Source of the DNA: Luteibacter jiangsuensis
Lineage (GTDB): Bacteria > Pseudomonadota > Gammaproteobacteria > Xanthomonadales > Rhodanobacteraceae
Assembly (NCBI RefSeq): GCF_030812295.1
Contig: NZ_JAUSSK010000001.1
Location: forward strand, 124,001-188,000
DNA: 64,000 nt
Direction of reading: 5' to 3'
In this document: piece after piece, positions 23,561 through 60,741 of the stretch
How positions within the stretch are numbered: the first letter of the stretch is position 1
How the letters are laid out: every line of letters starts with the position of its first letter
Position numbers and translations under genes: made by a program
Notes under the pieces: model-generated
What the model was told of the DNA's origin: nothing
Database searches by the model: none
The model's input: only the letters and a program-made list of their open reading frames with translations

Positions 23561-23562
23561 CC

Positions 23563-24339: not shown

Positions 24340-25172
24340 TGCGCGAGGAAGCCCACCGGTTCGGCCGCGGATGCCATCTCGTCGGCATCGCCGGCGTACC
24401 TGCGGCGGCGACCGGTGAAACCGGCGTCATCGTGGTGAACGCGGGCCTGGTTCATCGCATCGGCCCCTTCCGCCTGCATGTCGAACTGACCCGGCAGCTC
24501 AATGCCAGCGGCTATCCCACGCTGCGCTTCGACCTGTCCACGCTGGGCGACAGTGCCGCCACCGGAGGTGGCCAGACACGGACCCAGCAGGTGTGCGCCG
24601 ATCTGGACGACGCGATGAGCCTGCTCAAGGCCCGCGCCGGCTGCGAGCGCTTCGTGCTGGTGGGGTTGTGTTCGGGCGCCCAGAACGCTCACATCGTCGC
24701 CGCCACCGATCCGCGGGTGTCCGGCGCGGTTTTCCTCGACGGGTACGCGTACCGGACGATCGGCTACAAACTGCGTCATTACCTGCCGCGCATCGTCGAT
24801 CCCGGCCGCTGGGCCCGCTTGCTACTGCGGCGCGGTGGCGCGAACGGTGGCGGCAAGCCGGTCTCCGAGCCGGTGTTCGCGGTGGCACCCGCACCGCGCG
24901 AGGAAGTCATCGCCGATTTCACCGGCATGGTGGCCCGGGGCATGAAGCTGTACCTGGTCTATTCGGGCGGCATCAGCAATTACTTCAACCACGCGCGGCA
25001 GTTCCGCGAGTGCTTCGGCAAGGTGATGAGCCACCCGGCGGTGACCACGCGGTACTCCGCCGAGTCCGATCACACCTACATCCTCACCGGCGACCGTGCC
25101 CGTCTGCTCGACGGCATCGGCGGCTGGCTCACGCAGAATTTCCCGCCGGCCGCGGCCGGGAGGCATCCATGA
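24339..25172 (+). CDS. Alpha/beta hydrolase-like protein with Cys at the elbow
   Basis: The 277-residue protein has a second alpha/beta hydrolase fold: YPTLRFDLSTLGDSAATGG and the elbow VGLCSGAQNAHI (G-L-C-S-G), where cysteine takes the nucleophile place. A late histidine (ESDHTYIL, residues ~245-252) could complete a Cys/Asp/His triad. It resembles exosortase A-associated hydrolase 1. AAGGAG lies 8 bases before ATG 24339, and its ATG shares one base with the previous stop. The substrate is unknown; a thioester or acyl-transfer role is possible. Confidence 0.66.
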   Translation: MREEAHRFGRGCHLVGIAGVPAAATGETGVIVVNAGLVHRIGPFRLHVELTRQLNASGYPTLRFDLSTLGDSAATGGGQTRTQQVCADLDDAMSLLKARAGCERFVLVGLCSGAQNAHIVAATDPRVSGAVFLDGYAYRTIGYKLRHYLPRIVDPGRWARLLLRRGGANGGGKPVSEPVFAVAPAPREEVIADFTGMVARGMKLYLVYSGGISNYFNHARQFRECFGKVMSHPAVTTRYSAESDHTYILTGDRARLLDGIGGWLTQNFPPAAAGRHP

Positions 25173-41696: not shown

Positions 41697-42811
41697 GACG
41701 CATGCTCCATGTCGCCGAAGTAGAGCCGGCCATAGCGCGCGGCCATGGCTTCCATCGATCCGTGCGCCTCCACCCAGGCACGCGCCGCGAGGCCCAGCGT
41801 GGAGGCACGCTGCGTCGCATGCAACAGGTCGAGGATGGCCGCGGCCAGCGCCGACGGATCGCACGGCGGTACCAGGTGCCCGGTGGTCCCATCGTGCACG
41901 ATCTCCGCATTGCCGCCCACGTCGGTCGCGACGATGGGCAGGCCGGCGGCGCAGGCTTCCAGGAGGGCCATGGAATAGCCTTCGGTCACCGAGGAGAGCG
42001 CGAACAGGTCGAAACCCTGGAGCAGGTCGCGCACGTCGTTGCGATCTCCCAGGAAGTGCACGCAACCGGCCACGCCTTCGTCGAAGGCGGCGGCGCGCAA
42101 GGTCTCGCGCAACTCCCCGTCGCCGACCAGGACCAGCGCGGTATCCGGCCGGGTATGGCGGACGATGCGGAAGGCGCGGATCAGGCTCATCTGGTCCTTG
42201 GCCCAGTTCAGCCGACCCACGCTTCCGATGATGCGGGTGCCACGCGGTACCCGGATCAATCGGGTGAGACGTTCGTGCATGATGTCGGAGGCGATGTCGA
42301 AGCCGTCGAGCACGATGCCATTCGGCACCACGCAGGTCTTCGCCGCCGGCGCGATGCCGCGCCTTACCGCATCCACGCGCGCGGCTTCGCAGACGGCGAC
42401 GACGGCATCGGTGGCCTTGAGCGCGCGGCGGAAAAGCCATTCGCGGCGACCAGGCTTCCTTTGCGCGCCCATGCCGTGGCGGGTGTTCACCACCTGGCGG
42501 ATACCCATGCCCGCGCTGGCGAGCACCGCCTGGTAATGCGCCACGGCGTTATGCGTGTGCAGCACCTCGGTGTGGTGCGCGGCCAGCAGTTGACGCGCGC
42601 GGCCAAGGGCGCGCAGGTCGAAACCGGTGCGCTTATGGCAGGCGGCGACGGGAATGCCCAGTGAGTCCAGCTCACCCGCCAGCGAACCGCGCTCGAACAG
42701 GCACACCACCTGCACCTTGTGGCCTTGCCGATGCTGTTCCTTGACCAGGTCCAGGACCATGCGTTCGAGGCCGCCGCGATTGAGGTTCTCGACGAAGTGG
42801 GTGATGTTCAC
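41693..42811 (-). CDS. Glycosyltransferase family 4 protein (exosortase-locus stp2-like)
   Basis: The 372-residue GT-B glycosyltransferase begins ITHFVENLNRGGLERMVLDL, a signature start of the sugar transferases (TIGR03088-like) in exosortase-A polysaccharide loci. It has VVPNGIVLDGF, IIGSVGRLNWAKDQ, LVLVGDGELR and SVTEGYSMALLEACAAGLPIV donor motifs. It starts at ATG 42811, overlapping the CapK-like gene's stop by ATGA. Confidence 0.87.
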   Translation of the reverse strand: MNITHFVENLNRGGLERMVLDLVKEQHRQGHKVQVVCLFERGSLAGELDSLGIPVAACHKRTGFDLRALGRARQLLAAHHTEVLHTHNAVAHYQAVLASAGMGIRQVVNTRHGMGAQRKPGRREWLFRRALKATDAVVAVCEAARVDAVRRGIAPAAKTCVVPNGIVLDGFDIASDIMHERLTRLIRVPRGTRIIGSVGRLNWAKDQMSLIRAFRIVRHTRPDTALVLVGDGELRETLRAAAFDEGVAGCVHFLGDRNDVRDLLQGFDLFALSSVTEGYSMALLEACAAGLPIVATDVGGNAEIVHDGTTGHLVPPCDPSALAAAILDLLHATQRASTLGLAARAWVEAHGSMEAMAARYGRLYFGDMEHAS

Positions 42812-44163
42812 GAGGCCAGCTCCGAAACGGTGACACGCAGCTTTCCACTGCGGGTCAGCGGGATGTCGTCGACGAAGTGGCAGTGCAGTTCGGCGCTGTC
42901 ACCCAGCACCTTGCCCACTTCGCGGCGAATGTAGTCGAGCGAGGCATCGTCGAATCCACGGCCTCGCACGATCGATAGGTCGAGCCGGTCGAGCCGTCGC
43001 TGGACGAGCTGGAAGCGTGCGAGCCCCGGGACGTCCTTGAGCATGTGCGGGAAGAATTCGCCCGGAAGGATGTGGCCGGCGGGAGTCCGTATGGCGTCGA
43101 GCTTGCGGCCGTCGACCGAGGCAAGCATGGGCAGGCCCCGGCCACAGGCGCATGTGGAGGTGGCGTACGTGGCCATGTCGCCGTTGACATAGCGGATGAA
43201 TGGCATGCCGTAATTGAACAGGTCGGTGATGGCGACCTCGCCGCTTCCGCCGACGGCCGGCATGCCTTCGTGGTCGAGTGTCTCGACCACGAGGTGGTCC
43301 GCGTTCACGTGCAGGCCCTGGCGATGCTCGCATTCGGAAGCGATCAGCATGAATTCCCGACAGCCGTAGGTGTTGTAGGCGGGTGCGCCGAAGGCCCTCT
43401 CGATGAGGTCGCGTTGGAACGGATGCAGGGCTTCGGCGGCGCCGATGACGGAGACCGGGCGCGCCACCTGGCGATTGTTCGCCAGCAGCCATTCGGCCAG
43501 GCGGACAAGCGGCCCGACATAGCCGACGACGACCTCCGGACGGTAGGCGTCGATGGCGTCGGCGTAACCGGCCATGTTCGACTCGTTCATGTGGAAACTG
43601 TCGAGCAGCTTGCGTGCGAACACGGCGTTGTAGACGCGGTCCTTCAAGCGGTGCATCGCGCTGGGATTGCCGACGGCGCCACCCCAGAGGAACAGCGTCC
43701 GGCGGCCCATCCGCGAACCGGCCCAGCCGTAGCCGCGCCACATCACGGCCACGCGGCGGTCGTTGCTTTCGCGGGTGAACCCGAAACGCAGCGGTTCGCC
43801 CGTGGAGCCGCCGGTGGCCTTGTAGCCCAGCGATGCCTTCAGCGGCGTGGCCTTGATTTCGTCGGCGTTGTCGCGGATATCCGCCTTGGTCAATACGGGG
43901 AGCCTTGCATAGTCGTCCATGTCACGGATGTCCCGCGGCACGATGCCCAGCGCGTCCCAGCGACGCCTGTAGTACGGCACCTCGCGATAGCACCAGTCGA
44001 GCAGGCGTTTCAGCCGCTGGAACTGCAGGGCCTGCACTTCCTCGGGGGCCAGCCACTGGTCCCGCTCGTAGCGGCGCATGTACGTGGGCGTGTCGCGACG
44101 ACGCAGGCCGCCTTCGTATGCGGGCCAGACGATGCGGCGAAAGGCGGTCTCGTAGAGATTCAT
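42808..44163 (-). CDS. CapK/phenylacetate-CoA ligase family AMP-ligase
   Basis: The 451-residue member of the ANL superfamily of adenylating enzymes has the P-loop KATGGSTGEPLRFGFTRES (residues ~118-136), the aromatic YGCREFMLIASE motif and the C-terminal lysine context PLTRSGKLRVTVSEL. CapK-like proteins occur in capsule loci and probably activate an acyl or amino acid for attachment to a sugar, although no product is proven here. It is flanked by a glycosyltransferase and the ligase, each with ATGA overlap. Confidence 0.82.
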   Translation of the reverse strand: MNLYETAFRRIVWPAYEGGLRRRDTPTYMRRYERDQWLAPEEVQALQFQRLKRLLDWCYREVPYYRRRWDALGIVPRDIRDMDDYARLPVLTKADIRDNADEIKATPLKASLGYKATGGSTGEPLRFGFTRESNDRRVAVMWRGYGWAGSRMGRRTLFLWGGAVGNPSAMHRLKDRVYNAVFARKLLDSFHMNESNMAGYADAIDAYRPEVVVGYVGPLVRLAEWLLANNRQVARPVSVIGAAEALHPFQRDLIERAFGAPAYNTYGCREFMLIASECEHRQGLHVNADHLVVETLDHEGMPAVGGSGEVAITDLFNYGMPFIRYVNGDMATYATSTCACGRGLPMLASVDGRKLDAIRTPAGHILPGEFFPHMLKDVPGLARFQLVQRRLDRLDLSIVRGRGFDDASLDYIRREVGKVLGDSAELHCHFVDDIPLTRSGKLRVTVSELAS

Positions 44164-45422: not shown

Positions 45423-46519
45423 GGTTGTTCCCTCGGTCCGGCCGCCTGGTGGGCGGGGGTGGGATAGCTCATCAGTTGCGGCAAGGCGAGCATCGCGGCG
45501 AACCAGCCGGGGCCCATGTTGCTTTCCACCGGCAGACGGTAGAGCGAGTAACGGTTCTCGCTGGGTTCCGCGTTGGTTCCACAGACGTAGCTGCAGGCGA
45601 GCTGGAATCCGGCATGGCGGGTAGCCGAGATCACGTCGTCGTTATAGGCGCGGTCGCCACCCACCGGATAGGACATCAGCACGGCGGGATTGCGCAGTTC
45701 GCGGTCCAGCGTGGCCTTGGATGCGCGGATCTCGCGTTCCATCTCTTCGCGCGGAAGACGTGCGAGCATGCGGTGGTGCACGCCGTGCGAACCGAATTCG
45801 AACCCGGCCGCCTCCATTTCGCGTGCCTGGTCCCAGGTCATGGGGCGGCAGTCGACGGGGCGGGCGGTCGCCGAAGGCATGTCCCACTCCACTTCGAGCC
45901 TCTCGATCATCGCGCTCTGCGCGAACGCGTCGAGCCATTTCATGCGCAGGAGCACGTTGCCGGCGATGCGGCGACGCGCCGACCGGTCAGGTGGCAGCAC
46001 CACGTCGATCGACAGTTCCGGAAGGACGAGCCGCGCCGCCGTCGTGAGCAGGATCATGTGCACCAGCCAGTCGTACGCATACGGACGGCCCGTGTCGATG
46101 TGTCCGGTGGAGACGAAGAACGTCGCCGGCACGCCGACCTCGTCCAGGATCGGGGCGGCGATCCGGTAGTTGTCGTCATAGCCGTCATCGAAGGTCACCG
46201 CCACGGTGTCCGGCGGCAAGGCCTCGCCCGCGTCGAGGGCAGCCACGATGTCGGTCAGCCGCATCGGCCGGAAGTATTTCCTGATACGCATCATCTGCTC
46301 GCGGAACTCGGCGGGCGGCGTGCTGATGAGTTCGAGGTCGAAGCCGAACGTGTCCGGGTCCGGCAGCGGCATCACGCGGTGGTAGGCGAGGATGCGCAAG
46401 TCGCGTTGCCACCACGCGCGCACACGTTGCAGCGAATGCAGCAGGCCGCTGGAATAGCACAACTCGCCGAGCCGGCCACGAATACCGGGAGCTCCGCGCG
46501 GGGGCATGGGGGTCACCAT
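45410..46519 (-). CDS. Polysaccharide deacetylase family protein
   Basis: The 369-residue CE4-like protein has ILAYHRVMP, VAVTFDDGYDDNY (motif 1), FEFGSHGVHHRML (motif 2 histidines), LMSYPVGGDRAYND and a long insert (~155-225) between motifs. It has no signal peptide. It is the third deacetylase-type gene in the operon. ATG 46519 overlaps the GT2 stop by 7 bases; GTG 46516 would give a 4-base GTGA overlap and is equally plausible. Confidence 0.85.
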   Translation of the reverse strand: MVTPMPPRGAPGIRGRLGELCYSSGLLHSLQRVRAWWQRDLRILAYHRVMPLPDPDTFGFDLELISTPPAEFREQMMRIRKYFRPMRLTDIVAALDAGEALPPDTVAVTFDDGYDDNYRIAAPILDEVGVPATFFVSTGHIDTGRPYAYDWLVHMILLTTAARLVLPELSIDVVLPPDRSARRRIAGNVLLRMKWLDAFAQSAMIERLEVEWDMPSATARPVDCRPMTWDQAREMEAAGFEFGSHGVHHRMLARLPREEMEREIRASKATLDRELRNPAVLMSYPVGGDRAYNDDVISATRHAGFQLACSYVCGTNAEPSENRYSLYRLPVESNMGPGWFAAMLALPQLMSYPTPAHQAAGPREQPCSP

Positions 46520-47643
46520 AGGTGCAGCCTTCGATTGCGTGCGAAGGCCAGTAGCGCCTGCGCCGCGAAGAGGTTGAGGTAGAAGAAGGCGACCGCTATC
46601 CGCAGGGGCAGCAGGCGTCCCAGTGGTGGTTGCAGGCGTGCGAGCGCGACCAGCAGCAATCCTCCGATCAGTCCGCCGAAGGCCAGGGCGTACATGGGAT
46701 GACGGGTGAACAACAGGCCGGTGCTGACCGTGAGGGCCAGGATCAGCCACGGCGCGAACAGGCGCAGGAGCTTATGGCTGACGAAGCGGAACCAGAGGGG
46801 ATTGCGCCACGGCGCGAGCAACCATGGTGCGAGCTGGATCAACTGGTAGTTCCCGGCGAGTGTGCGGATCTTGCGCCGCCGCTCTTCCTCGGGCAGTTGC
46901 GACGGTTGGTCCCACGCCATCGCCTTGGGCTCGAAGACCACGCGCTTGCCCTGCGCCGCCACGCGCATGGGTACGAGCACGTCGTCCAGCACGGTGCCTG
47001 CGGGCAGTGGCTGGAACAGCGACCGGCGTATCGCGTACAAGGCGCCACTGACGCCGATCGTCGAGCCGGAGAGGCTTTCCGCATGGCGGATGCCCTTCTC
47101 GTAGCGCCAGTAGAAGTCAACGCCCTGGGCGAAGCCGCTGCGCACGTTTTCCATGTGCAGTTCGCCACCCACCGCGCCCACGGTGGGGTCGCCGAGGTTG
47201 GCGACGAGTTCTTTCAAGGCCACCGGGGAGAGCTTCTGGCGGACGTCGGTGAAGAGCAGCACCTCGCCGCGTGTCAATGCCACGGCGTCGTTGAGGCAGG
47301 CCGCCTTGCCGCGCCGGTTGGGAAAGTCCAGCACGGTCACCCGGGGATCGGTCGAGCGCCGTGCCGTCGTCACCGTCGTGTCGTGGCAGCCGTCGCAGGC
47401 GATGACGATGTCGATCAGCTCGGCGGGGTAGTCCAGCTGCCGCAGGCTGGCCAGCTTCGCGCGGATGAAACGCTCGCCGTCGTGCACGGCCATGACGATG
47501 CTGACCGTGGGAAGGATCGCGCGTCGCGCCACCGGCAATGGACGCAGGCGGGCCTGCATCCACACCAGCAGCGGATAGCCGATGAAGACGTGCGCGAGCA
47601 GTGCCGCCGAACTCCAGCAGATGAACCAGGCGATATGAGTCAT
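46513..47643 (-). CDS. Glycosyltransferase family 2 membrane protein
   Basis: The 376-residue processive-type GT2 has an N-terminal membrane segment (AWFICWSSAALLAHVFIGYP), SIVMAVHDGERFIRAKL, VIACDGCHDT (D-x-D-like region), the second aspartate in LLFTDVRQKL, VLDDVLVPMRV, and Q-x-x-x-W-related RRKIRTLAGNY. Three helices follow at the C-terminus. This is the layout of polymer-forming or polyprenyl-linked transferases. GGGGGGAA precedes ATG 47643, which is 25 bases after the synthetase gene's end. Confidence 0.87.
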   Translation of the reverse strand: MTHIAWFICWSSAALLAHVFIGYPLLVWMQARLRPLPVARRAILPTVSIVMAVHDGERFIRAKLASLRQLDYPAELIDIVIACDGCHDTTVTTARRSTDPRVTVLDFPNRRGKAACLNDAVALTRGEVLLFTDVRQKLSPVALKELVANLGDPTVGAVGGELHMENVRSGFAQGVDFYWRYEKGIRHAESLSGSTIGVSGALYAIRRSLFQPLPAGTVLDDVLVPMRVAAQGKRVVFEPKAMAWDQPSQLPEEERRRKIRTLAGNYQLIQLAPWLLAPWRNPLWFRFVSHKLLRLFAPWLILALTVSTGLLFTRHPMYALAFGGLIGGLLLVALARLQPPLGRLLPLRIAVAFFYLNLFAAQALLAFARNRRLHLW

Positions 47644-47668: not shown

Positions 47669-50600
47669 TCAACCGCGCCCAAGAAGGCGACTTAGCAGGC
47701 CACGTTTCGTGGCGGGCGCCGTGGCGGCCGGGATCGCTACCGCCAGCTCCGCGGCCAGCGTGCCGAGCGTGCCATTGGCGATGTCGAGCAGGTTGAGTTG
47801 CACACCCGTGAGCTTCTGGATGCGGACGGCCATGTCCACCGCGAGCAGGGAATGACCGCCCACGTCGAAGAAGTTGTCGCTGGTGCGTATGCGCGACATG
47901 CCAAGCAGTTCGGTCCATACCGACGCCAGCAGCCGCTCGCTTTCGCTGCGCGGTTCCGTGCTTTCGGCCGACGCGCCCACGTAAGGTTCCGCGGGAAGCG
48001 GCAAGGCCGCGATGTCCACTTCGCCCGTTGCCAGCAGCGGCAAGGCATCGAGCACGACGAGGTGCGCGGGCATGGACCAGGCCGGTAGCGACGTGGCCAG
48101 CGCGGCGCGCAGGTTTTCGGCGTCCGGCGGATTGCCCGGAGCGCCGACCGCATAGGCATCGACGCGGAAGAGGCCGGCATGGTCCGTCCGCGACACCGCC
48201 ATGGCGCGCACGATGCCTGGCTGGGCGACCAGCAGGGCTTCGATCGCCGCAGGCTCCACGTCCAGGCCGCGGCTGCGGATGCGCCGGTCGTCGCGCCCGA
48301 TCACCTGCAACTGGCCATCGGCCAGCCAGCGTCCGCGGTAGCCGGTGCGCAGCAGGCAGCCGTCTCCCGGCTGCCGTTCCGCGTTGGCTCGCTGGCCGAA
48401 CGGCATGGCGAGGGTGCGGCCGGCGACACCGAGTTCACCGGTCGCGCCGATCGGGCAGGGCTCGCCGTCTTCGTCGATGATCCAGATCTCCGCATGGGTG
48501 GCCGGGCGGCCTTCATGCAAGGCGTCGGCGATGTGTTCGACACGGCCGCATGTCGCGACGGGAGCCGATGCCGCGTCACCGAACAGTGTCCACAGCTCCG
48601 CCGTGGAAGCGGCGATGCGAGCCGCCATGTCCGGCGTGGGCGTACCGCCGACGACGACCGCGCGCAGATGGCGGTCGCCCGGCCACCGCGTGTCGACGAG
48701 CGTGTGCCAGGTCTCGGGATTGGCGATGAAGGTATCGAGGTTGCCGAGGTCGCCATGCGCGAGAGCGTGGGCGTCGGCGATCCGCCAGGTGGCGCCATGG
48801 GCCAGGGCGAGCAGGGGTGCGATGACGGACATCGGATCGACAGGCAGGGCATCGCCGGAAACACGCTGCTCGGCGTCGAAGGCGAGTGCGTCGGCAAGAC
48901 CTTCCACGGCTGCGGCGACGGCCCGGTGCGAAAGCGCCGCGCCTCGCGCCTTGCCATCGGGGCCCAGGGTGTGAAAGGCGATGGCCGCGCCATCGGCATC
49001 GGGGCGCGCGATGAAATCGCCGTCGCCGACGATGGCGGCATCGAGTTCCGCGTGGTCCGCGTCGAGCCAGAGGGCGCACGCGCGCGGCCAGTCCAATGTC
49101 GTTTCGAGCGTGGCGTCGCCGACCAGTACGGTCATCCGTGCATCGGCGAGGATGTCGCGCAGCCTCGCCGCAGGGTCGGCGCGGTCGAGCAACAGGGCGG
49201 TGCTTCCGGTCCTGGCGATGGCCAGGAGGGCGGCGAGACGCTCGGTGCCGGGATCGACGCAGAGGCCGACGACACTTCCGTTCTTCGCGCCGCGTTCGCG
49301 CAAGAGTGACGCCATGCGGTCGACACGACGCAGCAGCGACGCATAGGTTGTTTCACGGCTCCCTTGCGCGATGGCGACGGCATCGGGGGAGATCGCGGCG
49401 CCCCGGGCAACCAGGGCGTAGAGGTCCGCGGGCAGGCGGGCGTCGGCACCGGAAGCATTCCAGTCGCGCATGCGTTCACGTTCGGCCGCCGTGGCCGCCG
49501 TGAGCGTACCCACGGCGATCGCGGGATCGATGGCGACCTTGCGCATCATCCCGAGGTAACGCTCGCGCATCAGCCGCGCCGTATCCGCCTGCAGCAGGTC
49601 GGCGTTATAGGTTACGCCGCCGACCATGCCCGCGTGGCCTTCCAGGAACCAGAGCCCGAGGTCTTCCGTGGCACCGCTCTGGAATAGCAGGATCTGTTCA
49701 TGGGCGAGGCCACCCCAGTCCACCACGCGCTGGCGGGCATCCTGGAACGAGAACAGCGCCTGGTAGAGCGTGGCGCCCGCGCCATGGCCGACCTTCAGTT
49801 CGCGTTGCAGGTATTCCAGCGGAACGTCGGGATGACCGAAGGCCTCGATGGCGGTGCGTTTCACGTGACGGACGAACTCGAGGAACGACAGTGCCGGATC
49901 CACGCTCACATGAAGCGGTAACAGGTTGTTGAAGTAACCCATGACCGATTCCAGCTCGGTCTGGTTGCGTCCGCGCACGGGCGTGCCGACGACGAGGTCG
50001 TGCTGGCCGGCCGAACTGGAAAGCATCGCGAAATACAGGGCGAGCAAGGTCATGTTGAGCGTGGCGTCCGCCTGGCGGGCCACCTCGTGCATGGCGTCGG
50101 TGTCCTCGCGCGACACGCGGATCCACTCGGTCCGGCCGAGGCCGGACATGCCCGGACGCCGTGGATGGTCGGTGGGCAGCGCGCGTATGTCGCCCATCTG
50201 CGCGAGGCGCTCACGCCAGTATCCAAGCTGGACCTGGAACGCGGGCGATTCGAGCCACTCCGCATGCCATTCGGAGAAATCGCCATAGGTCACGGGCAGC
50301 GGTGCCAAAGGCGAGGGCTGCCCCGCGGCGAAGGCGCGATACAGCGCGGAGAGTTCGTTGTAGAGGATGTCGAACGACCAGCCGTCCCAGATGATGTGGT
50401 GCGGCATGAAGAAGAGCGCGTGCTCGTCGTCGGCCAGGCGGAACATGCGCGCGCTGAACAGCGGCGCGGCGCCGAGATCGAATGGCGTGTCGGTCAGTTC
50501 CTGCAGGCGCTGCATCAAGCGGGTCTCGCGTTCTTCCGGCGGCAGGTGGCTCAGGTCCTCCGCGGGGAAGAGGGGATATTCCAGCTGCGGCGCCACGACC

Positions 50601-53600
50601 TGCGCGATGTCGTTGCCGAGGTCGCGGAAGGCGGTGCGCATGATCGGCTGCCGCTGGATCAGGGCCTGGAACGCCATGTCGAACGCATGCTCGTCGAGCT
50701 GACCACGCAGGCGGTGCGCCGACGGCGCGTTGTAGGTGACGCGGCCGGGATGCATCCGTTCCAATGCCCACAACCGGCGTTGCATCAACGAAAGCGGAGC
50801 GTGGTCTTGTTCCGTGGCGGGGCGATGGCCGACGGGCGCGGTGGCGGGCGCGCTCCCGCTGGCCACTTGCGTGCCGATGGCGGAGGCGAGCCGTTCGATC
50901 GTGGGGGCGTCGAACAGCGTGCGGAACGACAAGGTGACGCCGAACTCGCGATTGAGGCGGGCGGTGAGCTGCGCGGCCAGCAACGAATGACCGCCCAGAG
51001 CGAAGAAATCGTCGCGGATGTCGAGGTCGGGCAGGCAGAGCACGCTTTCCATCGCCGCGGCGACGCGTCGTTCGTCCTCGTTGCGTGGCGCGATGCGCTC
51101 GCCGGACGTGGAGATGGAATGGGCGATCGGCGGCGGCAGGGACTTGCGGTCGGTCTTGCCGTTGGGCAGCAGCGGAATGGCGTCCAGCACCAGGATATGT
51201 TGCGGAACCATGTAGTCGGGCAGGCGTGCGCGCAGGCGTGCGCGCAGGTCGTCCTCGTCGAGCGCGGCGGCGCCGTCGCGGGCTACGACATAAGCGACCA
51301 GGCGCACGTCCCCGGGGCGGTCCTCGCGCGCCATCACCACCGCGCGGGCGACCTCCGGCGCATCGGCAAGCACGCTTTCGATTTCGCCCGGCTCGATGCG
51401 GTAGCCGCGTACCTTCACCTGGAAGTCGAGACGGCCCATGTGCTCGAGCAAACCGTTGCTGAGCCAGCGGCCACGATCGCCGGTCTTGTACATGCGCGAA
51501 TCGGGCGCTTCCGACCAGGGGTCGGCGACGAACTTTTCGGCCGTGAGTTCGGGGCGGTCGAGATAACCAAGCGTGACGCCGGCGCCGCCGATGTGGATTT
51601 CGCCAGGCACGCCCAGCGGGCAGTGGTTGCCGCCTTCATCGAGGATGTGCACGGTGGTATTGGCGATCGGACGGCCGATGTAGATGCCGCCGCGCGGGTC
51701 GGATACACGCCAATAGGTCGAATACACCGTGGTCTCGGTGGGGCCATAGCCGTTCCACACTTCGCCACAACGGTCGAGCAGGGCTTCCGCCAGGTCGACG
51801 GGCAGCGGTTCGCCGCCGGAGACCGCGCGAAAGGCGGGCCGACCCTGCCAGCCCGCGTCCACGAGCAGGCGCCAGCCGGCCGGCGTGGCCTGCATCATGG
51901 TGGCGTCGCATTCTTCGATCAGCCTGCGCAGCTGTCCACCATCGCGTACGTCGTCGCGGCCGGCGACGACGATCTCCGCGCCGCTGGTCAGCGGCAACAT
52001 CAGTTCCATGAAGGCGATGTCGAACGACAGCGTGGTCACCGCGACCAACCGGTCGTCAGGGGCGATGCCCGGCACCCGCTGCATGCTGGTGAGGAAATTC
52101 GCTGCCGCGCGGTGCGGTACGCGCACGCCCTTGGGCCGGCCAGTGGAGCCGGAGGTGAATATCACATAGGCGACGGAGTCGGGCGTGGCGGCGCGGCGGT
52201 TGCGCTCGGGCCGTTCGAAGGATGCATCGACGATCTCCCCGCTGTTCAGCGCGATCACGCGCGCGGCATCGAACTCGAACGCCAGCGGCGTATCGTCGTC
52301 CACCACCAGCGCGGCGAGCGACGCATCCTCGGCCATGAAGGCGAGCCGGTCGGCGGGGAAGGTCGGGTCCAGCGGGACATAGCCGGCACCGGATTTCAGT
52401 ACGCCAAGCACGGCCGCGACCATGTCGAGGCCGCGCGCCAGCGACAGGCCGACCAGGGCGCCATGGCCGATGCCGCGCGCGCGCAACGCGTTGCCGATGC
52501 GGTTGGCTCGCGATTCCAGTGCGGCATAGCTGAGCGAGCGGTCGGCATGACGGACGGCGGCGCGCTCCGGCGCGCGGTCCACCTGTTGTTCGAAGAACTC
52601 GTGGGCGAGGCGGAGTTCCGGGAACGGAGTGGGCGCAGGCTGCAGCGCGGCCAATTCGCGGTACACGGCGTCGGAGACGATCGGCAGCGCGACGGCGGCT
52701 TCCGTCGGGTCAAGCGCGGCATGGCGTAGCAGCGTCGCGTACGCGTCGAGCCAGCCTTGCACCGTGGCACCCTCGAAAAGGTCGGCGTTGTACTGGCATT
52801 CGAGGCGTAATCCGCCGTCCACCTGCACCGCATTGATGAACATCTCGAAATTCTCGAATTCACGCGGCACCGCTTCCACATTGAAGCGAAGGCCCGGGAA
52901 ACGTACCGTGGTCTCGTCCAGTTGCGCGTCGAGGTTGAACAGCACCGCCACCAGTGGCAGGCGCGATGGATCGCGTGCCAGCGAGAGCCGGGCGAGCAGG
53001 CTGCCAAGCGTGTAGCGCTGGTGGTCGAAGGCGTCGAGCAGGTCGTTGCGCACGGTGCCCAGCACCGTGGCGAAGCTCGCTTCGTCGTCGATGCGTGCAC
53101 GCAGGGGCAATACGTTCACGCAGTGGCCGACCAGCGTCTGCTGGCCTTCGGCCGCCTGGCCAGCCGTGGGAATGCCGATCACCACGTCGTCCTGCCCCGC
53201 CAGCCGGCGGAGCAGGACAGCGAACGCGGCGAGCAGGGTCGCATAGAAACTGGCGCCGTGGGCGGCGCCCAGGCGCTTGATCGCGGCGACTTCCGTCGGG
53301 TCCAGCATGCGGTCTTCGCGCCGTGAGGTGAACGTCCGCCGGCGGGGGCGGGAACGGTCCGTTGGGAGGTCCAGTACGGGGACCGGGCCGGCGAACCGGT
53401 CGAGCCAGTACTGTTCGTCCTCCCGGGCCGTCTCGCTGCCGGCGTGCGCAGCCTCGGCCAACGCGAAGTTCGAGAACGCGCCCGCGGGTGCCGGGCCGGG
53501 GCCCTGGCCTGTCCGCTGCGCGTAAAGAGCGGCGAGATCGCTCACGATCACGCCGAACGACCAGCCGTCGCAAACGATATGATGCGCGGCGATGGTCAGG

Positions 53601-54052
53601 ATATGTCGGTCGGTGCCCAGGCGGAACAATTCCGCGCGGACCAGGGGACCGTTCTCGAGATCGAACGGCGTCGTGACGATGCGCGAGAACGCGGCCATGA
53701 TCCGTGCATCGCTCTCGAACGGAGCCAGCAGGGAAAGATCGTGGAAAGCGATCGGCAGCGTGGTATGGCCGGCGACGAAGAGGCCTTCGCCATCGCCGCT
53801 GAAGGTCGCGCGCAAGGCTTCGTGGCGATCGACGATCGCCTGCAGCGCCCATTCGAGAGCCGGCACGTCGAGCAAGCCCTTGAGGTCGAGCGAAACCGCT
53901 TCGTTATAAGCCAGCGAGGCTTCCGGCTCCAGCCGGGATGCCAGCCACACCTCGCGCTGCGGTGCCGTCGTCGGGACGAGCCGCGTGAGCGGCGCGCCTG
54001 CGAACGGATCGTAGTCGACCGCCGTGGCGGCGGCCAGCTCATTGTGCGTCAT
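47669..54052 (-). CDS. Nonribosomal peptide synthetase, C-A-PCP-C-A(degenerate)-PCP
   Basis: The 2127-residue synthetase contains C1 (HHIVCDGWS, ~residue 159) and A1 (FTSGSTGRPKG ~634, NGYGPTETT, TGDRGRW and the A10 lysine motif NGKTDRK ~966). PCP1 (GGHSLLAAQ ~1022) and C2 (HHIIWDGWS ~1220) follow. The second A domain (~1540-2020) has lost its core: AFHTLGPDGKARG for the P-loop, TGYRGRW for A7 and ATGEVDI for A10, with no lysine. The final PCP2 is GGHSLLAVD (~2065). The chain then ends, with no thioesterase, reductase or docking domain. By my alignment A1 has pocket residues D-I-M-Q-V-G-G-V-Y, whose start (D-I-x-Q-x-G) recalls glycine codes; this is weak. ATG 54052 overlaps the PKS stop (ATGA). 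No PPTase gene is present in the window. Confidence 0.93.
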   Translation of the reverse strand: MTHNELAAATAVDYDPFAGAPLTRLVPTTAPQREVWLASRLEPEASLAYNEAVSLDLKGLLDVPALEWALQAIVDRHEALRATFSGDGEGLFVAGHTTLPIAFHDLSLLAPFESDARIMAAFSRIVTTPFDLENGPLVRAELFRLGTDRHILTIAAHHIVCDGWSFGVIVSDLAALYAQRTGQGPGPAPAGAFSNFALAEAAHAGSETAREDEQYWLDRFAGPVPVLDLPTDRSRPRRRTFTSRREDRMLDPTEVAAIKRLGAAHGASFYATLLAAFAVLLRRLAGQDDVVIGIPTAGQAAEGQQTLVGHCVNVLPLRARIDDEASFATVLGTVRNDLLDAFDHQRYTLGSLLARLSLARDPSRLPLVAVLFNLDAQLDETTVRFPGLRFNVEAVPREFENFEMFINAVQVDGGLRLECQYNADLFEGATVQGWLDAYATLLRHAALDPTEAAVALPIVSDAVYRELAALQPAPTPFPELRLAHEFFEQQVDRAPERAAVRHADRSLSYAALESRANRIGNALRARGIGHGALVGLSLARGLDMVAAVLGVLKSGAGYVPLDPTFPADRLAFMAEDASLAALVVDDDTPLAFEFDAARVIALNSGEIVDASFERPERNRRAATPDSVAYVIFTSGSTGRPKGVRVPHRAAANFLTSMQRVPGIAPDDRLVAVTTLSFDIAFMELMLPLTSGAEIVVAGRDDVRDGGQLRRLIEECDATMMQATPAGWRLLVDAGWQGRPAFRAVSGGEPLPVDLAEALLDRCGEVWNGYGPTETTVYSTYWRVSDPRGGIYIGRPIANTTVHILDEGGNHCPLGVPGEIHIGGAGVTLGYLDRPELTAEKFVADPWSEAPDSRMYKTGDRGRWLSNGLLEHMGRLDFQVKVRGYRIEPGEIESVLADAPEVARAVVMAREDRPGDVRLVAYVVARDGAAALDEDDLRARLRARLPDYMVPQHILVLDAIPLLPNGKTDRKSLPPPIAHSISTSGERIAPRNEDERRVAAAMESVLCLPDLDIRDDFFALGGHSLLAAQLTARLNREFGVTLSFRTLFDAPTIERLASAIGTQVASGSAPATAPVGHRPATEQDHAPLSLMQRRLWALERMHPGRVTYNAPSAHRLRGQLDEHAFDMAFQALIQRQPIMRTAFRDLGNDIAQVVAPQLEYPLFPAEDLSHLPPEERETRLMQRLQELTDTPFDLGAAPLFSARMFRLADDEHALFFMPHHIIWDGWSFDILYNELSALYRAFAAGQPSPLAPLPVTYGDFSEWHAEWLESPAFQVQLGYWRERLAQMGDIRALPTDHPRRPGMSGLGRTEWIRVSREDTDAMHEVARQADATLNMTLLALYFAMLSSSAGQHDLVVGTPVRGRNQTELESVMGYFNNLLPLHVSVDPALSFLEFVRHVKRTAIEAFGHPDVPLEYLQRELKVGHGAGATLYQALFSFQDARQRVVDWGGLAHEQILLFQSGATEDLGLWFLEGHAGMVGGVTYNADLLQADTARLMRERYLGMMRKVAIDPAIAVGTLTAATAAERERMRDWNASGADARLPADLYALVARGAAISPDAVAIAQGSRETTYASLLRRVDRMASLLRERGAKNGSVVGLCVDPGTERLAALLAIARTGSTALLLDRADPAARLRDILADARMTVLVGDATLETTLDWPRACALWLDADHAELDAAIVGDGDFIARPDADGAAIAFHTLGPDGKARGAALSHRAVAAAVEGLADALAFDAEQRVSGDALPVDPMSVIAPLLALAHGATWRIADAHALAHGDLGNLDTFIANPETWHTLVDTRWPGDRHLRAVVVGGTPTPDMAARIAASTAELWTLFGDAASAPVATCGRVEHIADALHEGRPATHAEIWIIDEDGEPCPIGATGELGVAGRTLAMPFGQRANAERQPGDGCLLRTGYRGRWLADGQLQVIGRDDRRIRSRGLDVEPAAIEALLVAQPGIVRAMAVSRTDHAGLFRVDAYAVGAPGNPPDAENLRAALATSLPAWSMPAHLVVLDALPLLATGEVDIAALPLPAEPYVGASAESTEPRSESERLLASVWTELLGMSRIRTSDNFFDVGGHSLLAVDMAVRIQKLTGVQLNLLDIANGTLGTLAAELAVAIPAATAPATKRGLLSRLLGRG

Positions 54053-57000
54053 GCGGTCACCCTCAGGTACTTGCCCGGCGCATCCGGGTTGGGAACGAAC
54101 CACGCGGGACGCCCTTCAGGATCCTTGCCAAGCCGCGCGCCGGGTATGGGCGGATGCTCGGCATCGAAGGAGGCCGTCTCGCGGCGGCGCGGCAGGAATT
54201 CCGCTTCCTGCATTTCAAGGATCGATTCGCGGAAGGCGCTGGCGATCGCGGCAAAATCCGTCTCGTCGTGCGCCGTGGTGAAGAAGCAGGGGAAGTTGTC
54301 GAGGATATGGATGCCGCGGCTGCGCATCATCGCGAAGAGCAGGTCCTGCAGCGGATGGTCCTCGGTGAAGACGGTCTTCCACACCGACGAGAAGTGGACG
54401 ACGTGGACCGGGGCGCCAACGCTTGCGCAGAAGGCGTTCAGTTCATCGGCCATGGCCGTGACCTTCGCGTTGAGCGAGGCCTGCAAGTCTGGACCTTCCT
54501 GTTTCAGGTGCGTGAGCACGGCATGCGCCGCGGCCAGGGCCAGCGGATGGCGGACGAAGGTGCCGGCGAAATAGGTGACGCCGACGGTGGGAGTGGAATC
54601 GTCGCCGAACTGCCAGTGGCCGCCGTCGAGCGCATCCATGAAGCGGCGCTTGCCGGCGATGACGCCGATGGGGAAGCCACCGCCGACCACCTTGCCGTAC
54701 GAGGCCATGTCGGCATCGATGCCGAGCATCGCCTGCGCGCCGCGCGGATGCGAGCGGAAACCGGTGACCACTTCATCGAAGATGAGCAAGGAGCCGGCTT
54801 CCTCGGTGATCGCGCGCAGCTCCTGGAGGAATTCCACCGGCTGGAAATCGGGCCGGCGGCTCTGCACAGGCTCGACGAGCACGGCGGCGATGGACGAGGC
54901 GCGTTCGCGGATGATCGCCAGCGACTCGGGCGTGCCGTAGTCCAGGACCAGGACGTTCTCAGCCGTATTGCGCAGGATGCCCGGCGCGGCGGGAACGGAC
55001 TTGAGTTTCCTGGTGCCGCGGACGATCACCTCGTCGAAGATGCCGTGATAGGAACCGGTGAAGATCACCAGGGTGTCGCGGCCGGTGACGGTCCGCGCCA
55101 CGCGCACGCACCCCATCACCGCTTCCGAACCGGTGTTGCACAGTGCCGCGCGGTCGAAGCCGGTGAGCTCGCATACCTGCTTCGCGACCACGCCGGCGAG
55201 GGGATGTTGCGGGCCGATCTCGTAGCCCGCGTCCAGCTGCTTGCGCACCGTATCGAGCACGAAGTCGGGCTGCCAGCCGAACAGGTTCATGCCGAAGCCG
55301 TTCAGCGCGTCGACGTACATGTTGCCGTCGAGATCCCAGACCTTCGAACCCTTGGAACGTTCGATCACGATCTGGTAGACGATTTCCTTCAGCAACGGGC
55401 GGAAGCCGTTCACCACACGCGGATCGGCGAGGTGCGGGCGGTGCTCTTCCGTATAGGCCTTGGAAGCCTTGCTGCGCTCGATGTAGCGGCGCATGAACGC
55501 GTCGAGGCGGGCGCGCTGCCTCGCGGAGAGACTGGTGTTCGTGGAATGGATCCGGGCGATCGCGCCGAAGGCCTTCTTTACATCGTAGGTAGTGTGGGCG
55601 AGCGCCGCTTCCTCGTCGTTCGCAGCCCCGGATTGCTCAGAAGAAGCCCCCTGCCTGGCGGCATCCCCTTGCGGGGTGGATGCCGCTCTGGTGGGAGCCG
55701 ACCCTGTCGGCGATACGGCGGTTCCATCGCCGGCAGGGCCGGCTCCCACCTGAGCGGTCCCCAACAAAGCAGCTCCCGCGGGAGCGGTGGCTCCCGCCAG
55801 CAACGCCAGCTGTTCCCGCATGATCTGCATTTGCTGCGCGATCACGTCCTGGACCAACCCGCCGCCGGAGGCGATTGCCACCGGCGCCACCGCCGCGGCC
55901 GGCACGGCGACAGCCGCGGCCACGGGCGCCACCGGCTGGGCTTCAGCCGGCAACAGGCGATCGATATGCGCCGCGAGCCGTTCGAACGAGGAACATCCGT
56001 CCATCAGTTCGCGGAAGGTGATCTTCAGTGCATAGGTCTTCTGTAGTTGCAGTGCCACCTGGGTCAGCGACAACGAATCGAGCCCCAGTTCGACGAAGGT
56101 CGCCGCCGGGTCCACGCCCTCGAGTTCGGTGCCGGAGACGTCCTCGAACAAGGCGGCGAGTTCGCCGACGAGACGTTGCGGACGAGCGGTGGTGGCGGGT
56201 GCGGAAGGCATCGGCATGGGGAGAAGCTCCGGTACGGCGGCAGTGGCGGTGACAGACGGCGCGACAGGCGCCGCCGCGGCGATGGGTGTGACGGACGCGG
56301 GAAGGCGCGCGTCGATCCAGTGCCGCTTGCGTTCGAAGGGGTAGGTGGGCAGCCGCACGCGGCGCCGGCTTTCGCGGTGGTCGAAGGCTCCGGTATCGAT
56401 GGCGGCGCCAGCCGACCACAACGCTCCGGCGGCACCCAGCCACGCGGTCCGTTCGTCGGTGGGGCCATCGCCGAGCGAGGCGACGATGGTGCGGCCGCGG
56501 CTTTGCGCGTGCTGCCGGGCGAGCAATGCGAGGCTGGGGCGCGGGCCGACTTCCAGGAAGGCGTGGGTGCCTTCGTCCAACACGTGCAGCAGCGCCGGCG
56601 AGAAGCGCACCGTGTGGCGCATATGCCGCGCCCAGTAATCGGGCGAGGTGGCTTCGGCATCGGTCAGGGGCAGGCCGGTCAGTGTCGAGACGATGCGCAT
56701 GCGTGGCGCGGCCAGCGGCACGGCGGCGACTTCGGCGCGGAACGCGTCGAGCACGGGGTCCATCATCGCCGAGTGGAAGGCATGCGAGGTATGCAGCAGG
56801 CGGCACGCGACGCCTTCGGCTTCGAGCGTGGCGCGGAAGGATTCGACGGCATCGGTATCGCCAGAGACGACGCTCGCGTTCGGCGCGTTCTCGGCGGCGA
56901 GCGATAGAGTGTCCGGGAGCCGGCCACGGAGCTCGGCGGCTCCCAGGCGAACCGAAAGCATGGAACCCCCGGGCAACGCCTGCATCATGCGGCCACGGCG

Positions 57001-60000
57001 CGCGACGAGTCGGGCCGCGTCGGCCAGCGGCATGATACCGGCCAGCGCGGCGGCGGCGAACTCGCCGACGCTGTGGCCGATCATCGCGACGGGTTCCACG
57101 CCGAGGCTCATCCACAGGCGGGCCAGCGCGTATTCCAATGCGAAGGTCGCAGGCTGGGTCAGTGCCGTCGCCTTGAGCGCGTCGGCGTCGCCGGCGAACA
57201 TCCGGTCGCGCAGATCGAAGCCGAGCTCCTCGCGCAGCGCGCCTGCCACTTCGTCGAGCGCGGCGCGGAACACCGGCTCCGTGGCATGCAGTTCGCGGCC
57301 CATGCCAGCATATTGCGAGCCCTGGCCAGGGAAGAGGAAGACCATGCCCGGCGAGGGACTCGCGCAGGCACGGCACATCGCCGCGGCCGCGACGTCGCGC
57401 AGCTTCGCCATCGCGTCGTTGGTGGAGAGGGCGACGACATGGGTGCGCTGGACGAAGGCCTTGCGGCCGCATGCCAGGGTCCACGCCGCATCGGCGAGAT
57501 TACCGTCGGGATGTGCCGCGAGATGGTCGGCGAGACGAGCGGCGGCGTGACCGAGCGCCGTCGGCGTGCGTGCCGACAGCAGTAGCAATTGCGCGCCGCT
57601 GGCCGCGTCGGACGGCGCGCGCTCCGGTGCTTCCTCGAGGATCAGGTGGGCGTTCGTGCCACCGACGCCGAACGAACTCACGCCTGCGCGCAAGGGCCCG
57701 CCAGCGGTTTGCCATGGGCGCAGCGTGTCATTCACCACGAACGGGGAGTCGGCCAGGTTGAGGCGAGGATTGGCGGCCTTGTAATGCAGGGACGGCGGTA
57801 AGCGGCGTTCGTGCAGGGCGAGCGAGGTCTTGATGACACTCGCCGCCCCGGCCGCCATCACCAGGTGACCGACGTTGCTCTTCAGGGATCCCAGCGCGCA
57901 GAAGCCCTTGTCCGTGGTGCCCTGGCGGAACGCCTGTGTCAGTCCTTCGAGCTCGATCGGGTCGCCCAGCGGCGTGGCCGTGCCATGCGCTTCGACATAG
58001 GAGATGTCGCGTGGTGACACGCCCGCATCGTCGAGGGCCATCGTGATCACGGCGGCCTGGCCGGAGGCATTCGGTGCGGTGAAGCTCGCCTTTACCCCGC
58101 CGTCGTTGTTCACGGCCGCACCGCGGATCACGGCGTAGATAGGGTCTCCGTCGCGCAAGGCATCGGACAGGCGCTTCAGCAGGACGACGGCGGCACCGTC
58201 ACTGAACACCGTGCCTTGTGCGTCCGCATCGAACGTGCGCGTATGCCCGTCGGGCGAGAGCATCGATCCTTCCTGCGCGACGTAGCCACTGTTCGGGGGA
58301 CAGGCGATCGACGAACCTCCCGCGAGCGCCATGCCACAACGTCCCGCGCGCAAGGCGTCGAAGGCCTGGGCGATGGCGACCAGCGAGGTGGAGCAGGCGG
58401 TGTTCAGGCTGATCGCCGGACCCGTGAGGTTGAGCTTGTGCGCCACGCGCGTGGCGAGGTAATCCTTCTCGTTGCCGAGCATCACCTGGAACGCGCCGAG
58501 CTTGTCGATCAGGTCGGGCCGGCCACTGACATGCCGCTGGTAATAAGTCGCGTTGTGCATGCCACCGAACACGCCCACGGGTACTTGCTGCGCATCGGGC
58601 ACATAGCCGCCGCGCTCGAGGCATTCCCAGCACAGCTCCAGGAACAGGCGCTGCTGGGGATCGGTCAGTTCGGCCTCGCGTGGAGACATGCCGAAGAAGC
58701 CCGCGTCGAACTGTTCCACGTCGTCGACCACGCCACGCGCGGCGACATAGGCCGGATCGTCGCGATCGGCTGCGCTCACGGCGGGATCGAGTTCGCCCGG
58801 CGCGAAGAAGCGGATCGATTCGCGGCCGGCACAGAGGTTGTCCCAGAATGTCTCGACGTCCGGTGCACCGGGGAAACGTCCCGCCATGGCGATGATCGCC
58901 ACCGCTTCCCCCACCGCCTGCGCGCCACCCGCGAGGCGTCCTGCCAACGCTTGCCGGGTGGCGCGCCCCTCGATCGTGGCCGCCACGGCGGCCGGGGTCG
59001 GTTCGGCGAAGAAGCCGACCAGGGTTGGGGTCGGCGACAGTTCTTCATGCACGCGAGTCATGGCACGCGTCGCAAGAAGGGAGCTGCCGCCGAGGTCGAA
59101 AAAGTTGTCGTCACGGCCGACCGCGTCCAGGCCGAGGGTCTGGGCGAAGATGGCGCAGAGCCGGGTTTCGATATCGCCACGCGGCGCGACGAAGGGTGCG
59201 GCCAGTTCGGGGCGATCGCTGCCGGGGACAGGGAGGGCGCGACGATCGAGCTTGCCGTTGTCGTTGACCGGCAGCGCATCGAGGCGCATCCAGGCGACGG
59301 GCAGCATGTACTCGGGAAGCGTGCGGGCCAGCGCGTCCCGCAGGTCGCGCGCGCTCACGCTGTCGTCGTGGCCGACGTAATAGGCGACCAGGCGCTTTTC
59401 GCCGGGAACATCCTCGCGTGCGACGACGGTGGCGGCGGTGACGCCTGGAAGCGCGCGCAACGCGATGTCGATCTCGCCGGTCTCGATGCGATAGCCGCGG
59501 ATCTTCACCTGCCCGTCGGCACGCCCGACGAAGGCGAGATTGCCGTCGGGCAGCCAGTGCACGAGATCGCCGGTACGGTACAGCGTGCCACCGGCGACGA
59601 AACGCTCCGCGGTGAGTTCGGGCCGGTTGAGATAGCCACGGGCCACGCCGCTGCCACCGATGAAGAGTTCGCCGGTGTCACCGGCGGCGACCTCGTTGCC
59701 TTCACCGTCGAGCACATGCAGCGAGGTTTCGCCGATGGGCTTGCCGATGGGGATGGCCCGGAGGCCGTCGGGCAGTTCGCGCGGTATCGGGTAGGTGGTC
59801 GCGAAGGTGGTGCACTCGGTCGGACCGTAGCCGTTGATCAGTGCGGTGGAAGGCAGCGCGGCGTAAGCCTTGCGCACGTGGGGCACGGACAGCGCCTCAC
59901 CACCCGTCAGCACCACGCGCAGGCCCGCCAGGTTGGTGGCATCGTCGTCGACGATGGCGTTGAACAGCGCGGCGGTGAGCCAGGCGATCTCCGCTCCATG

Positions 60001-60741
60001 CATGGCGACGGTGCGTGCGATGCCGCAGCCCGTGGGCACGCGCTCGTTGTAGACCACGCATGTGCCGCCATTGAGCAGCGGAGCGAAGATCTCGAAGGTG
60101 GAGGCGTCGAAGCCCAGCGGTGCCGCATGCAGCACTTTCGGTGCATCGAAGTCGATGTAATCGGAGCGCAGGACGAGACGCAGGATCGACGTGTGCCGGA
60201 TCTCGACGCCCTTGGGCGTCCCCGTGGACCCGGAGGTGTACATGGCATAAGCGAGGTCGTCGCCCGAGCCCGCATGTGGGAGCCGCTTCAGCGGCGACGA
60301 GCGCTTGCCAGTCCAACCGCCGGTCTGGGTTTCCAGGGCGGCGACCGTGAACAGCGGAACGTCATCGGAAACGAAGTCCAGCGTTTCGTCCGCCACGATG
60401 GCCGCGACGTCCGCGTCGCGCAGCGCGAAGGCCACGCGCTCGGCAGGCCAGCGTGTGTCGATGGGCAAATAGGCCGCGCCGGCCTTCAGTACGCCGAAGA
60501 GGGCGACGATCGCCTCGACCGAACGTTCCATCAGCAAGGCCACGTAACTGCCGGGTTCCACACCCGCCGCCAACAACCCGGCCGCCACGCGGTCGCTGCG
60601 TGCATCCAGCTCGCCGTAGGTCAGGCTTGAGGCATCCGATGCCACGGCGGTCCGTTCCGGGCACGCTTTCGCCACGGCGGCGAAGCGACCGTGGACGGTG
60701 CCGGCGTCGTGCCCGGCGGCGGAAAGTGTCTGGTTCATCAT
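54049..60741 (-). CDS. Hybrid NRPS-PKS, A-PCP-KS-AT-ACP-aminotransferase
   Basis: The 2230-residue multienzyme contains an A domain (YTSGSTGTPKG ~170; NGYGPTECT), PCP (GGSS ~552) and KS (TACSTS Cys ~783, EAHGT ~918, KSNVGHL ~957). Next come AT (GHSVGE ~1222; HAFH ~1320 implies malonyl), ACP (GLDSLSL ~1555) and a class III PLP aminotransferase (SYGKVVGGGFPIG, Lys ~2017). The A pocket by my alignment is D-A-F-W-L-G-G-T-F, one residue from a published valine code. The expected product is a valine-derived chain extended by malonate and converted at the beta carbon from keto to amino, as in mycosubtilin/iturin-type MycA. Two REP-like repeats are translated in frame (A2-A3 linker at 60275-60297; ACP-aminotransferase linker at 55690-55750). 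ATG 60738 is an alternative start. It is the first gene of the operon. Confidence 0.93.
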   Translation of the reverse strand: MMNQTLSAAGHDAGTVHGRFAAVAKACPERTAVASDASSLTYGELDARSDRVAAGLLAAGVEPGSYVALLMERSVEAIVALFGVLKAGAAYLPIDTRWPAERVAFALRDADVAAIVADETLDFVSDDVPLFTVAALETQTGGWTGKRSSPLKRLPHAGSGDDLAYAMYTSGSTGTPKGVEIRHTSILRLVLRSDYIDFDAPKVLHAAPLGFDASTFEIFAPLLNGGTCVVYNERVPTGCGIARTVAMHGAEIAWLTAALFNAIVDDDATNLAGLRVVLTGGEALSVPHVRKAYAALPSTALINGYGPTECTTFATTYPIPRELPDGLRAIPIGKPIGETSLHVLDGEGNEVAAGDTGELFIGGSGVARGYLNRPELTAERFVAGGTLYRTGDLVHWLPDGNLAFVGRADGQVKIRGYRIETGEIDIALRALPGVTAATVVAREDVPGEKRLVAYYVGHDDSVSARDLRDALARTLPEYMLPVAWMRLDALPVNDNGKLDRRALPVPGSDRPELAAPFVAPRGDIETRLCAIFAQTLGLDAVGRDDNFFDLGGSSLLATRAMTRVHEELSPTPTLVGFFAEPTPAAVAATIEGRATRQALAGRLAGGAQAVGEAVAIIAMAGRFPGAPDVETFWDNLCAGRESIRFFAPGELDPAVSAADRDDPAYVAARGVVDDVEQFDAGFFGMSPREAELTDPQQRLFLELCWECLERGGYVPDAQQVPVGVFGGMHNATYYQRHVSGRPDLIDKLGAFQVMLGNEKDYLATRVAHKLNLTGPAISLNTACSTSLVAIAQAFDALRAGRCGMALAGGSSIACPPNSGYVAQEGSMLSPDGHTRTFDADAQGTVFSDGAAVVLLKRLSDALRDGDPIYAVIRGAAVNNDGGVKASFTAPNASGQAAVITMALDDAGVSPRDISYVEAHGTATPLGDPIELEGLTQAFRQGTTDKGFCALGSLKSNVGHLVMAAGAASVIKTSLALHERRLPPSLHYKAANPRLNLADSPFVVNDTLRPWQTAGGPLRAGVSSFGVGGTNAHLILEEAPERAPSDAASGAQLLLLSARTPTALGHAAARLADHLAAHPDGNLADAAWTLACGRKAFVQRTHVVALSTNDAMAKLRDVAAAAMCRACASPSPGMVFLFPGQGSQYAGMGRELHATEPVFRAALDEVAGALREELGFDLRDRMFAGDADALKATALTQPATFALEYALARLWMSLGVEPVAMIGHSVGEFAAAALAGIMPLADAARLVARRGRMMQALPGGSMLSVRLGAAELRGRLPDTLSLAAENAPNASVVSGDTDAVESFRATLEAEGVACRLLHTSHAFHSAMMDPVLDAFRAEVAAVPLAAPRMRIVSTLTGLPLTDAEATSPDYWARHMRHTVRFSPALLHVLDEGTHAFLEVGPRPSLALLARQHAQSRGRTIVASLGDGPTDERTAWLGAAGALWSAGAAIDTGAFDHRESRRRVRLPTYPFERKRHWIDARLPASVTPIAAAAPVAPSVTATAAVPELLPMPMPSAPATTARPQRLVGELAALFEDVSGTELEGVDPAATFVELGLDSLSLTQVALQLQKTYALKITFRELMDGCSSFERLAAHIDRLLPAEAQPVAPVAAAVAVPAAAVAPVAIASGGGLVQDVIAQQMQIMREQLALLAGATAPAGAALLGTAQVGAGPAGDGTAVSPTGSAPTRAASTPQGDAARQGASSEQSGAANDEEAALAHTTYDVKKAFGAIARIHSTNTSLSARQRARLDAFMRRYIERSKASKAYTEEHRPHLADPRVVNGFRPLLKEIVYQIVIERSKGSKVWDLDGNMYVDALNGFGMNLFGWQPDFVLDTVRKQLDAGYEIGPQHPLAGVVAKQVCELTGFDRAALCNTGSEAVMGCVRVARTVTGRDTLVIFTGSYHGIFDEVIVRGTRKLKSVPAAPGILRNTAENVLVLDYGTPESLAIIRERASSIAAVLVEPVQSRRPDFQPVEFLQELRAITEEAGSLLIFDEVVTGFRSHPRGAQAMLGIDADMASYGKVVGGGFPIGVIAGKRRFMDALDGGHWQFGDDSTPTVGVTYFAGTFVRHPLALAAAHAVLTHLKQEGPDLQASLNAKVTAMADELNAFCASVGAPVHVVHFSSVWKTVFTEDHPLQDLLFAMMRSRGIHILDNFPCFFTTAHDETDFAAIASAFRESILEMQEAEFLPRRRETASFDAEHPPIPGARLGKDPEGRPAWFVPNPDAPGKYLRVTA
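55690..55750. repeat. REP-like class B inverted pair inside the PKS gene
   Basis: Arms at 55690-55714 and 55726-55750, with an 11-base loop, form an imperfect palindrome. The first arm is identical to 12451-12475. It encodes part of the Gly/Ala/Ser/Thr-rich linker between ACP and aminotransferase (residues ~1664-1684) on the minus strand. Confidence 0.92.
60275..60297. repeat. REP-like class A unit inside the adenylation domain
   Basis: A single class A unit is read on the minus strand as SSPLKRLP and sits just before the A3 P-loop. It has the same sequence as the arm at 26337-26359 and is in frame. Confidence 0.9.

Follow-up and report, generated by a model that had tools for sequence, protein, structure and literature searches.

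Dead adenylation (A) domains are already known in nonribosomal peptide synthetases (NRPSs). One module of the albicidin NRPS contains an A domain whose core motifs are not conserved and nevertheless supplies a residue (PMC8949500); a stand-alone A-T protein complements this domain in trans. Module 9 of syringomycin SyrE (PMC8949500) and the A*-containing module of the kutzneride synthetase, the latter as cited in PMC10587159, have no working A domain, and each depends on a dedicated separate A enzyme. In the terminal module 13 of glidonin (C-A*-T-TE), A* lacks the N-terminal core part, and T13 cannot be dispensed with in vivo, even though the chemistry is that of C13 (PMC10587159). In another case one A domain, that of AmbB, charges two carrier (T) domains, including T2 of AmbE (PMC4357302).

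Here, we analyze an NRPS of Luteibacter jiangsuensis encoded in a window of 64,000 nucleotides, the window being the whole stretch of DNA studied (Table 1). A placement in Luteibacter, family Rhodanobacteraceae, also follows from its named relatives. The likeness to albicidin is an inactive A domain (A2) within a module, but the Luteibacter system is without a separate A-T protein. What the synthase shares with glidonin is a final module whose A domain does not function but whose C and T domains are needed; judged by its motifs, it has the same terminal C-A*-T arrangement with C and T intact. However, A2 has a full predicted fold and no thioesterase (TE) follows; indeed, none was found among the domains of the 2127-aa protein. 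The likeness to AmbB/AmbE is a second carrier in a module without its own working A domain, loaded, as we propose, by a shared one; the differences are that the Amb A domain is on another protein, that an A domain is missing altogether from the AmbE T2 module, and that AmbE has a TE. The kutzneride and syringomycin modules resemble the Luteibacter module in the missing A activity but rely on dedicated enzymes. A literature search for Luteibacter NRPSs, for such a polysaccharide-linked cluster, or for specificity codes found nothing relevant. What is new in the present system is that decay and deletion form a graded series, that module exchange has restored an intact A2, and that no stand-alone partner exists.

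Table 1. Features of the NRPS locus (positions in the window; residue numbers as in GrsA)
Feature	Coordinates	Strand	Remarks
NRPS gene	47669..54052	-	2127 aa, C1-A1-T1-C2-A2(dead)-T2
C1 condensation domain	52652..53977	-	HHIVCDG intact
A1 adenylation domain	51128..52594	-	every core motif intact; code DIMQVGGVYK
T1 carrier	50876..51067	-	GGHSLL
C2 condensation domain	49553..50800	-	HHIIWDG intact, 50372-50401
A2 pseudo-adenylation domain	47993..49477	-	catalytic residues replaced, fold kept (predicted structure)
A3 P-loop remnant of A2	48941..48979	-	AFHTLGPDGKARG; T190 position is Asp
A4 substrate aspartate of A2	48833..48835	-	D235 to Pro, from alignment with intact A2s
A5 remnant of A2	48560..48586	-	LFGDAASAP; Mg2+ glutamate (Glu327) is Ala
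A7 of A2	48335..48346	-	TGYR; ribose aspartate (Asp413) is Tyr
A10 of A2	48011..48031	-	ATGEVDI; catalytic lysine (Lys517) is Glu
T2 carrier	47738..47935	-	GGHSLL intact, 47831-47860
Upstream synthase	54049..60741	-	2230 aa, A-T-KS-AT-ACP-class III aminotransferase; A code DAFWLGGTFK
Glycosyltransferase (GT2)	46513..47643	-	directly downstream of NRPS, first in polysaccharide gene run
CapK/PaaK-like AMP-forming ligase	42808..44163	-	within same polysaccharide gene run

The catalytic residues of A domains, numbered as in GrsA, are the Thr of the P-loop, Asp235 (substrate amino group), Glu327 (Mg2+), Asp413 (ribose), and Lys517 of motif A10. In an alignment of the window A2 with the intact A2 domains of relatives, all five columns are invariant in the latter (23/23; 22/22 for K517, as one sequence is truncated), and each of the five residues is replaced in A2. 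Nearly all of them are also missing from the 33 degenerate rows of the alignment, which correspond to 32 distinct genomes (G014 and L080 are one genome). A2 retains Arg428, the Gly-x-x-Gly-Lys skeleton of the loop, and 57 of the 130 columns that are near-invariant in the intact domains. Its TIGR01733 score is 171 bits, far below the cut-off of 317, whereas A1 reaches 419 bits and the upstream protein's A domain 407. These sequence features strongly support the loss of adenylation activity. The earlier note, made from the letters of this DNA, had reached the same view from motifs A3, A5, A7, and A10; all of them were found at their places on the minus strand, and the A4 replacement is an addition to that list. 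Its statement that C2 and the final carrier keep their key residues also holds.

The body of the domain, according to the structural model, is preserved while its chemistry is gone. An AlphaFold model of A2, built with 24 homologues as input, has pLDDT of 87.6, and its top Foldseek matches are NRPS A-T modules, with EntF among the best solved structures; the match to 4d4g has TMt of 0.86 at 3.0 Å, and GrsA (1amu) is also among the matches (E 2e-39). The two-subdomain ANL fold is thus recovered both in the predicted structure and by Pfam, where A2 still matches AMP-binding (123 bits) and AMP-binding_C. Product prediction from domain presence would therefore list A2 by its AMP-binding match, although the domain is very probably unable to act.

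The dead A2 is real, old, and conserved. It is observed across most of the genus Luteibacter as well as in numerous Dyella and allied lineages (32 genomes aligned), with homologous reading frames open throughout, so that the decay is shared among orthologs, a comparison that the earlier note had proposed. The replacements at the same positions vary by lineage: LFGDAMSAP, LFGADDSA, and VSGCADGA, for example, are found instead of YGPTE, a pattern to be expected after selection for catalysis has ceased. The median dN/dS within Luteibacter is 0.33 for A2, vs. 0.09 for A1, 0.12 for C2, and 0.13 for T2; selection on A2 is relaxed, yet the domain is still constrained. Sequencing error and recent pseudogenization were rejected, as the decay is kept in many genomes and dN/dS is below one. 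The possibility, raised in the earlier note, that resequencing would restore canonical motifs is ruled out by the same sharing of the dead domain. It is also hardly credible that A2 adenylates by some unusual mechanism, or that its motifs are artifacts: A2 does retain the predicted fold, Arg428, and some of the loop, but identical replacements recur among numerous genomes that were sequenced independently, and lineages differ in what they substitute at the same positions.

If A2 is inactive, which A domain could load T2? At or above the TIGR01733 cut-off, the window genome contains only two NRPS A domains, A1 and that of the upstream synthase, whose code we take to be valine-type. The count is likewise two in 13 further Luteibacter and Dyella solisilvae, all of which have a dead A2, and in four A-less genomes (G021 and three others). 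A stand-alone A domain as the loader of T2 was thus rejected for the 15 dead-A2 genomes searched, including that of the window, and the four A-less ones. The separate A domain of albicidin has no counterpart here, since both A domains of the genome belong to this synthase. The intact A2 domains of relatives mostly have the code DILQLG(L/M/V)VWK, and in many relatives the A1 code is nearly identical to the intact-A2 code; a DILQ-like code is present in A1 and in 22 of the 23 intact A2 domains. We take A1 and these A2 domains to be glycine-type, by comparison with published codes, so that an A domain with a suitable predicted substrate is present. One A-less group (L082, L106, L114, L119, and L122) has an A1 that is presumably serine-type, and hence the substrate redundancy is not general. 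The identity between T1 and T2 is about 30%, no higher in dead-A2 than in intact forms; therefore, convergence of T2 toward T1 after the loss of A2 was rejected, and T2 shows no sign of having adapted to A1. We also looked for an MbtH partner and found none.

A shared glycine-type code and the lack of a stand-alone A domain are most simply, and most likely, explained if A1 serves both carriers. We assign to the charging of T2 by A1 of the same polypeptide a probability of just under one half. According to this scheme, A2 would be an ancient pseudo-adenylation domain that has stopped activating any amino acid and persists for its structural role, as a spacer or platform between C2 and T2. T2 would carry phosphopantetheine and receive glycine, most likely from the neighboring intact A1, whose predicted substrate is that of the lost A2, and C2 would add the T2-borne residue to the T1-bound chain. 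Charged in this way with glycine, T2 would yield the same product as an intact A2. With A2 made redundant by A1, several lineages could then let it degenerate, shorten it, or lose it altogether and still make the product. The interpretation offered in the earlier note is thus partly supported: its choice between loading of T2 in trans and no loading was too narrow, as it left out an A domain of the same polypeptide with the predicted substrate of the relatives' intact A2. A changed product does not follow either, as it would be unchanged if A1 charges T2 and changed if the chain is released by an amine as in glidonin.

Multiple states of A2 can be observed in the relatives: intact (23 sequences), dead but full-length, shortened (G015, G017, G018, and G032), and absent, with the domain order C-A-T-C-T. 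In the last form, seen in L. rhizovicinus, Frateuria, and some Dyella and Rhodanobacter, C2 is followed by T2 within about 30 residues. The C2 motif HHxxxDG and a GGHSL-type T2 motif are retained in the compared forms, the A-less ones included. On the C2 tree, A-less forms repeatedly fall among dead-A2 forms. A thioesterase comes after the A-less module in Lysobacter (C-T-TE), a hint that the chain gets as far as T2. Separately, a form from Lysobacter soli (L103 11249-12838) has a T-TE end plus a second carrier match, apparently C-T-TE-T, and an intact form from Luteimonas (L110 12950-14023) has about 300 residues behind T2 with no Pfam match.

The reverse process is demonstrated by Dyella jiangningensis and two relatives (L115, L117, and L041). 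Their C1-A1-T1 part nests within the dead-A2 Dyella with support of 100, whereas their C2-A2-T2 is intact, with a C2 that clusters with those of intact forms. The AU test rejects a common origin of this C2 and that of the dead-A2 Dyella (p 1.7e-13). From the conflict between the two trees, the intact module was restored by recombination. As the deep branching of the larger tree is unsure because of long-branch rows, we relied only on the well-supported nesting within Dyella, which a smaller sequence set reproduced. Tentatively, this polysaccharide-linked synthase family may have given up one of two glycine-activating domains, the other now serving both carriers, with the product unchanged and with every stage still extant. 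If the sharing of A1 is true, the series is a natural record of a colinear assembly line that lost a domain while keeping its product; it could then serve as a guide when A domains are to be taken out of engineered assembly lines, and help to test the contribution of a folded dead A domain.

Another scenario, which we consider rather unlikely, is that C2 acts as in glidonin, where C13-A*-T13 adds putrescine (PMC10587159). Here, C2 would join a free amine, putrescine or another one, to the T1-bound chain and thereby release it, with A2 and T2 serving as a scaffold; the amine might perhaps be an amino sugar from the neighboring polysaccharide pathway, and the product would differ from that of the intact relatives. 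Such release agrees with the terminal position of module 2 and the lack of a thioesterase, but intact relatives, e.g., Rhodanobacter, also have no room for a thioesterase and must solve release otherwise. Some A-less forms do have one, which speaks against amine release, though glidonin has one too. On the tree, the C2 domains of dead and A-less forms are separate from those of intact forms, which could mean a different acceptor, and dead forms differ from intact ones by fixed residues, e.g., N1333, N1375, and H1381. Amine release would also fit the A-less synthases with a serine-type A1. On the other hand, T2 is strongly conserved, and an intact glycine module swapped into a dead-A2 lineage would then alter the product. 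If C2 does use a free amine, the series provides new examples of termination modules that add an amine, from another bacterial order.

Charging of T2 in trans by a non-NRPS ligase, such as the CapK/PaaK-like protein, or by an aminoacyl shuttle is improbable. The CapK-like gene shares a gene run with the NRPS, but it occurs at loci with intact, dead, or absent A2 and is missing near many A-less loci; as its presence does not track the state of A2, it was rejected as the compensating loader. Candidates for a shuttle are alpha/beta hydrolases encoded beside these synthases in other lineages, and precedents are the TEII enzyme LgnA, which moves aminoacyl groups between carriers (PMC8748450), and, in kutzneride (cited in PMC10587159), a non-functional A* required for the activity of a stand-alone A domain. 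Even less can be said for an idle module 2, in which T2 is never charged, the chain leaves from T1, and A2 drifts to deletion. The rate of evolution of A2 is indeed two to three times that of its neighbors, and several lineages have shortened or deleted it; however, decay of the whole module would then be expected, and C2 and T2 are instead under strong constraint and keep their key motifs even where A2 is gone.

The NRPS and the upstream synthase are adjacent, the start of the former overlapping the stop of the latter in ATGA. The only two condensation domains in this Luteibacter genome are those of the NRPS. The parts of the upstream synthase suggest a beta-aminated, two-carbon-extended valine unit handed to two glycine-type steps, and synthases of this type adjoin polysaccharide genes in several genera. 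The run downstream of the NRPS also encodes deacetylases, an O-antigen ligase-like protein, and GT4 glycosyltransferases. An exosortase system was rejected as the context of the locus since exosortase is absent from the genome, and the claim is therefore limited to a polysaccharide cluster with related genes. The CapK/PaaK-like ligase is duplicated in L096. Two alpha/beta hydrolases encoded at 23557-25172 of the window (plus strand) are relatives of exosortase-A-associated families, with scores under the curated cut-offs, and their homologues are found directly behind the NRPS in other genera.
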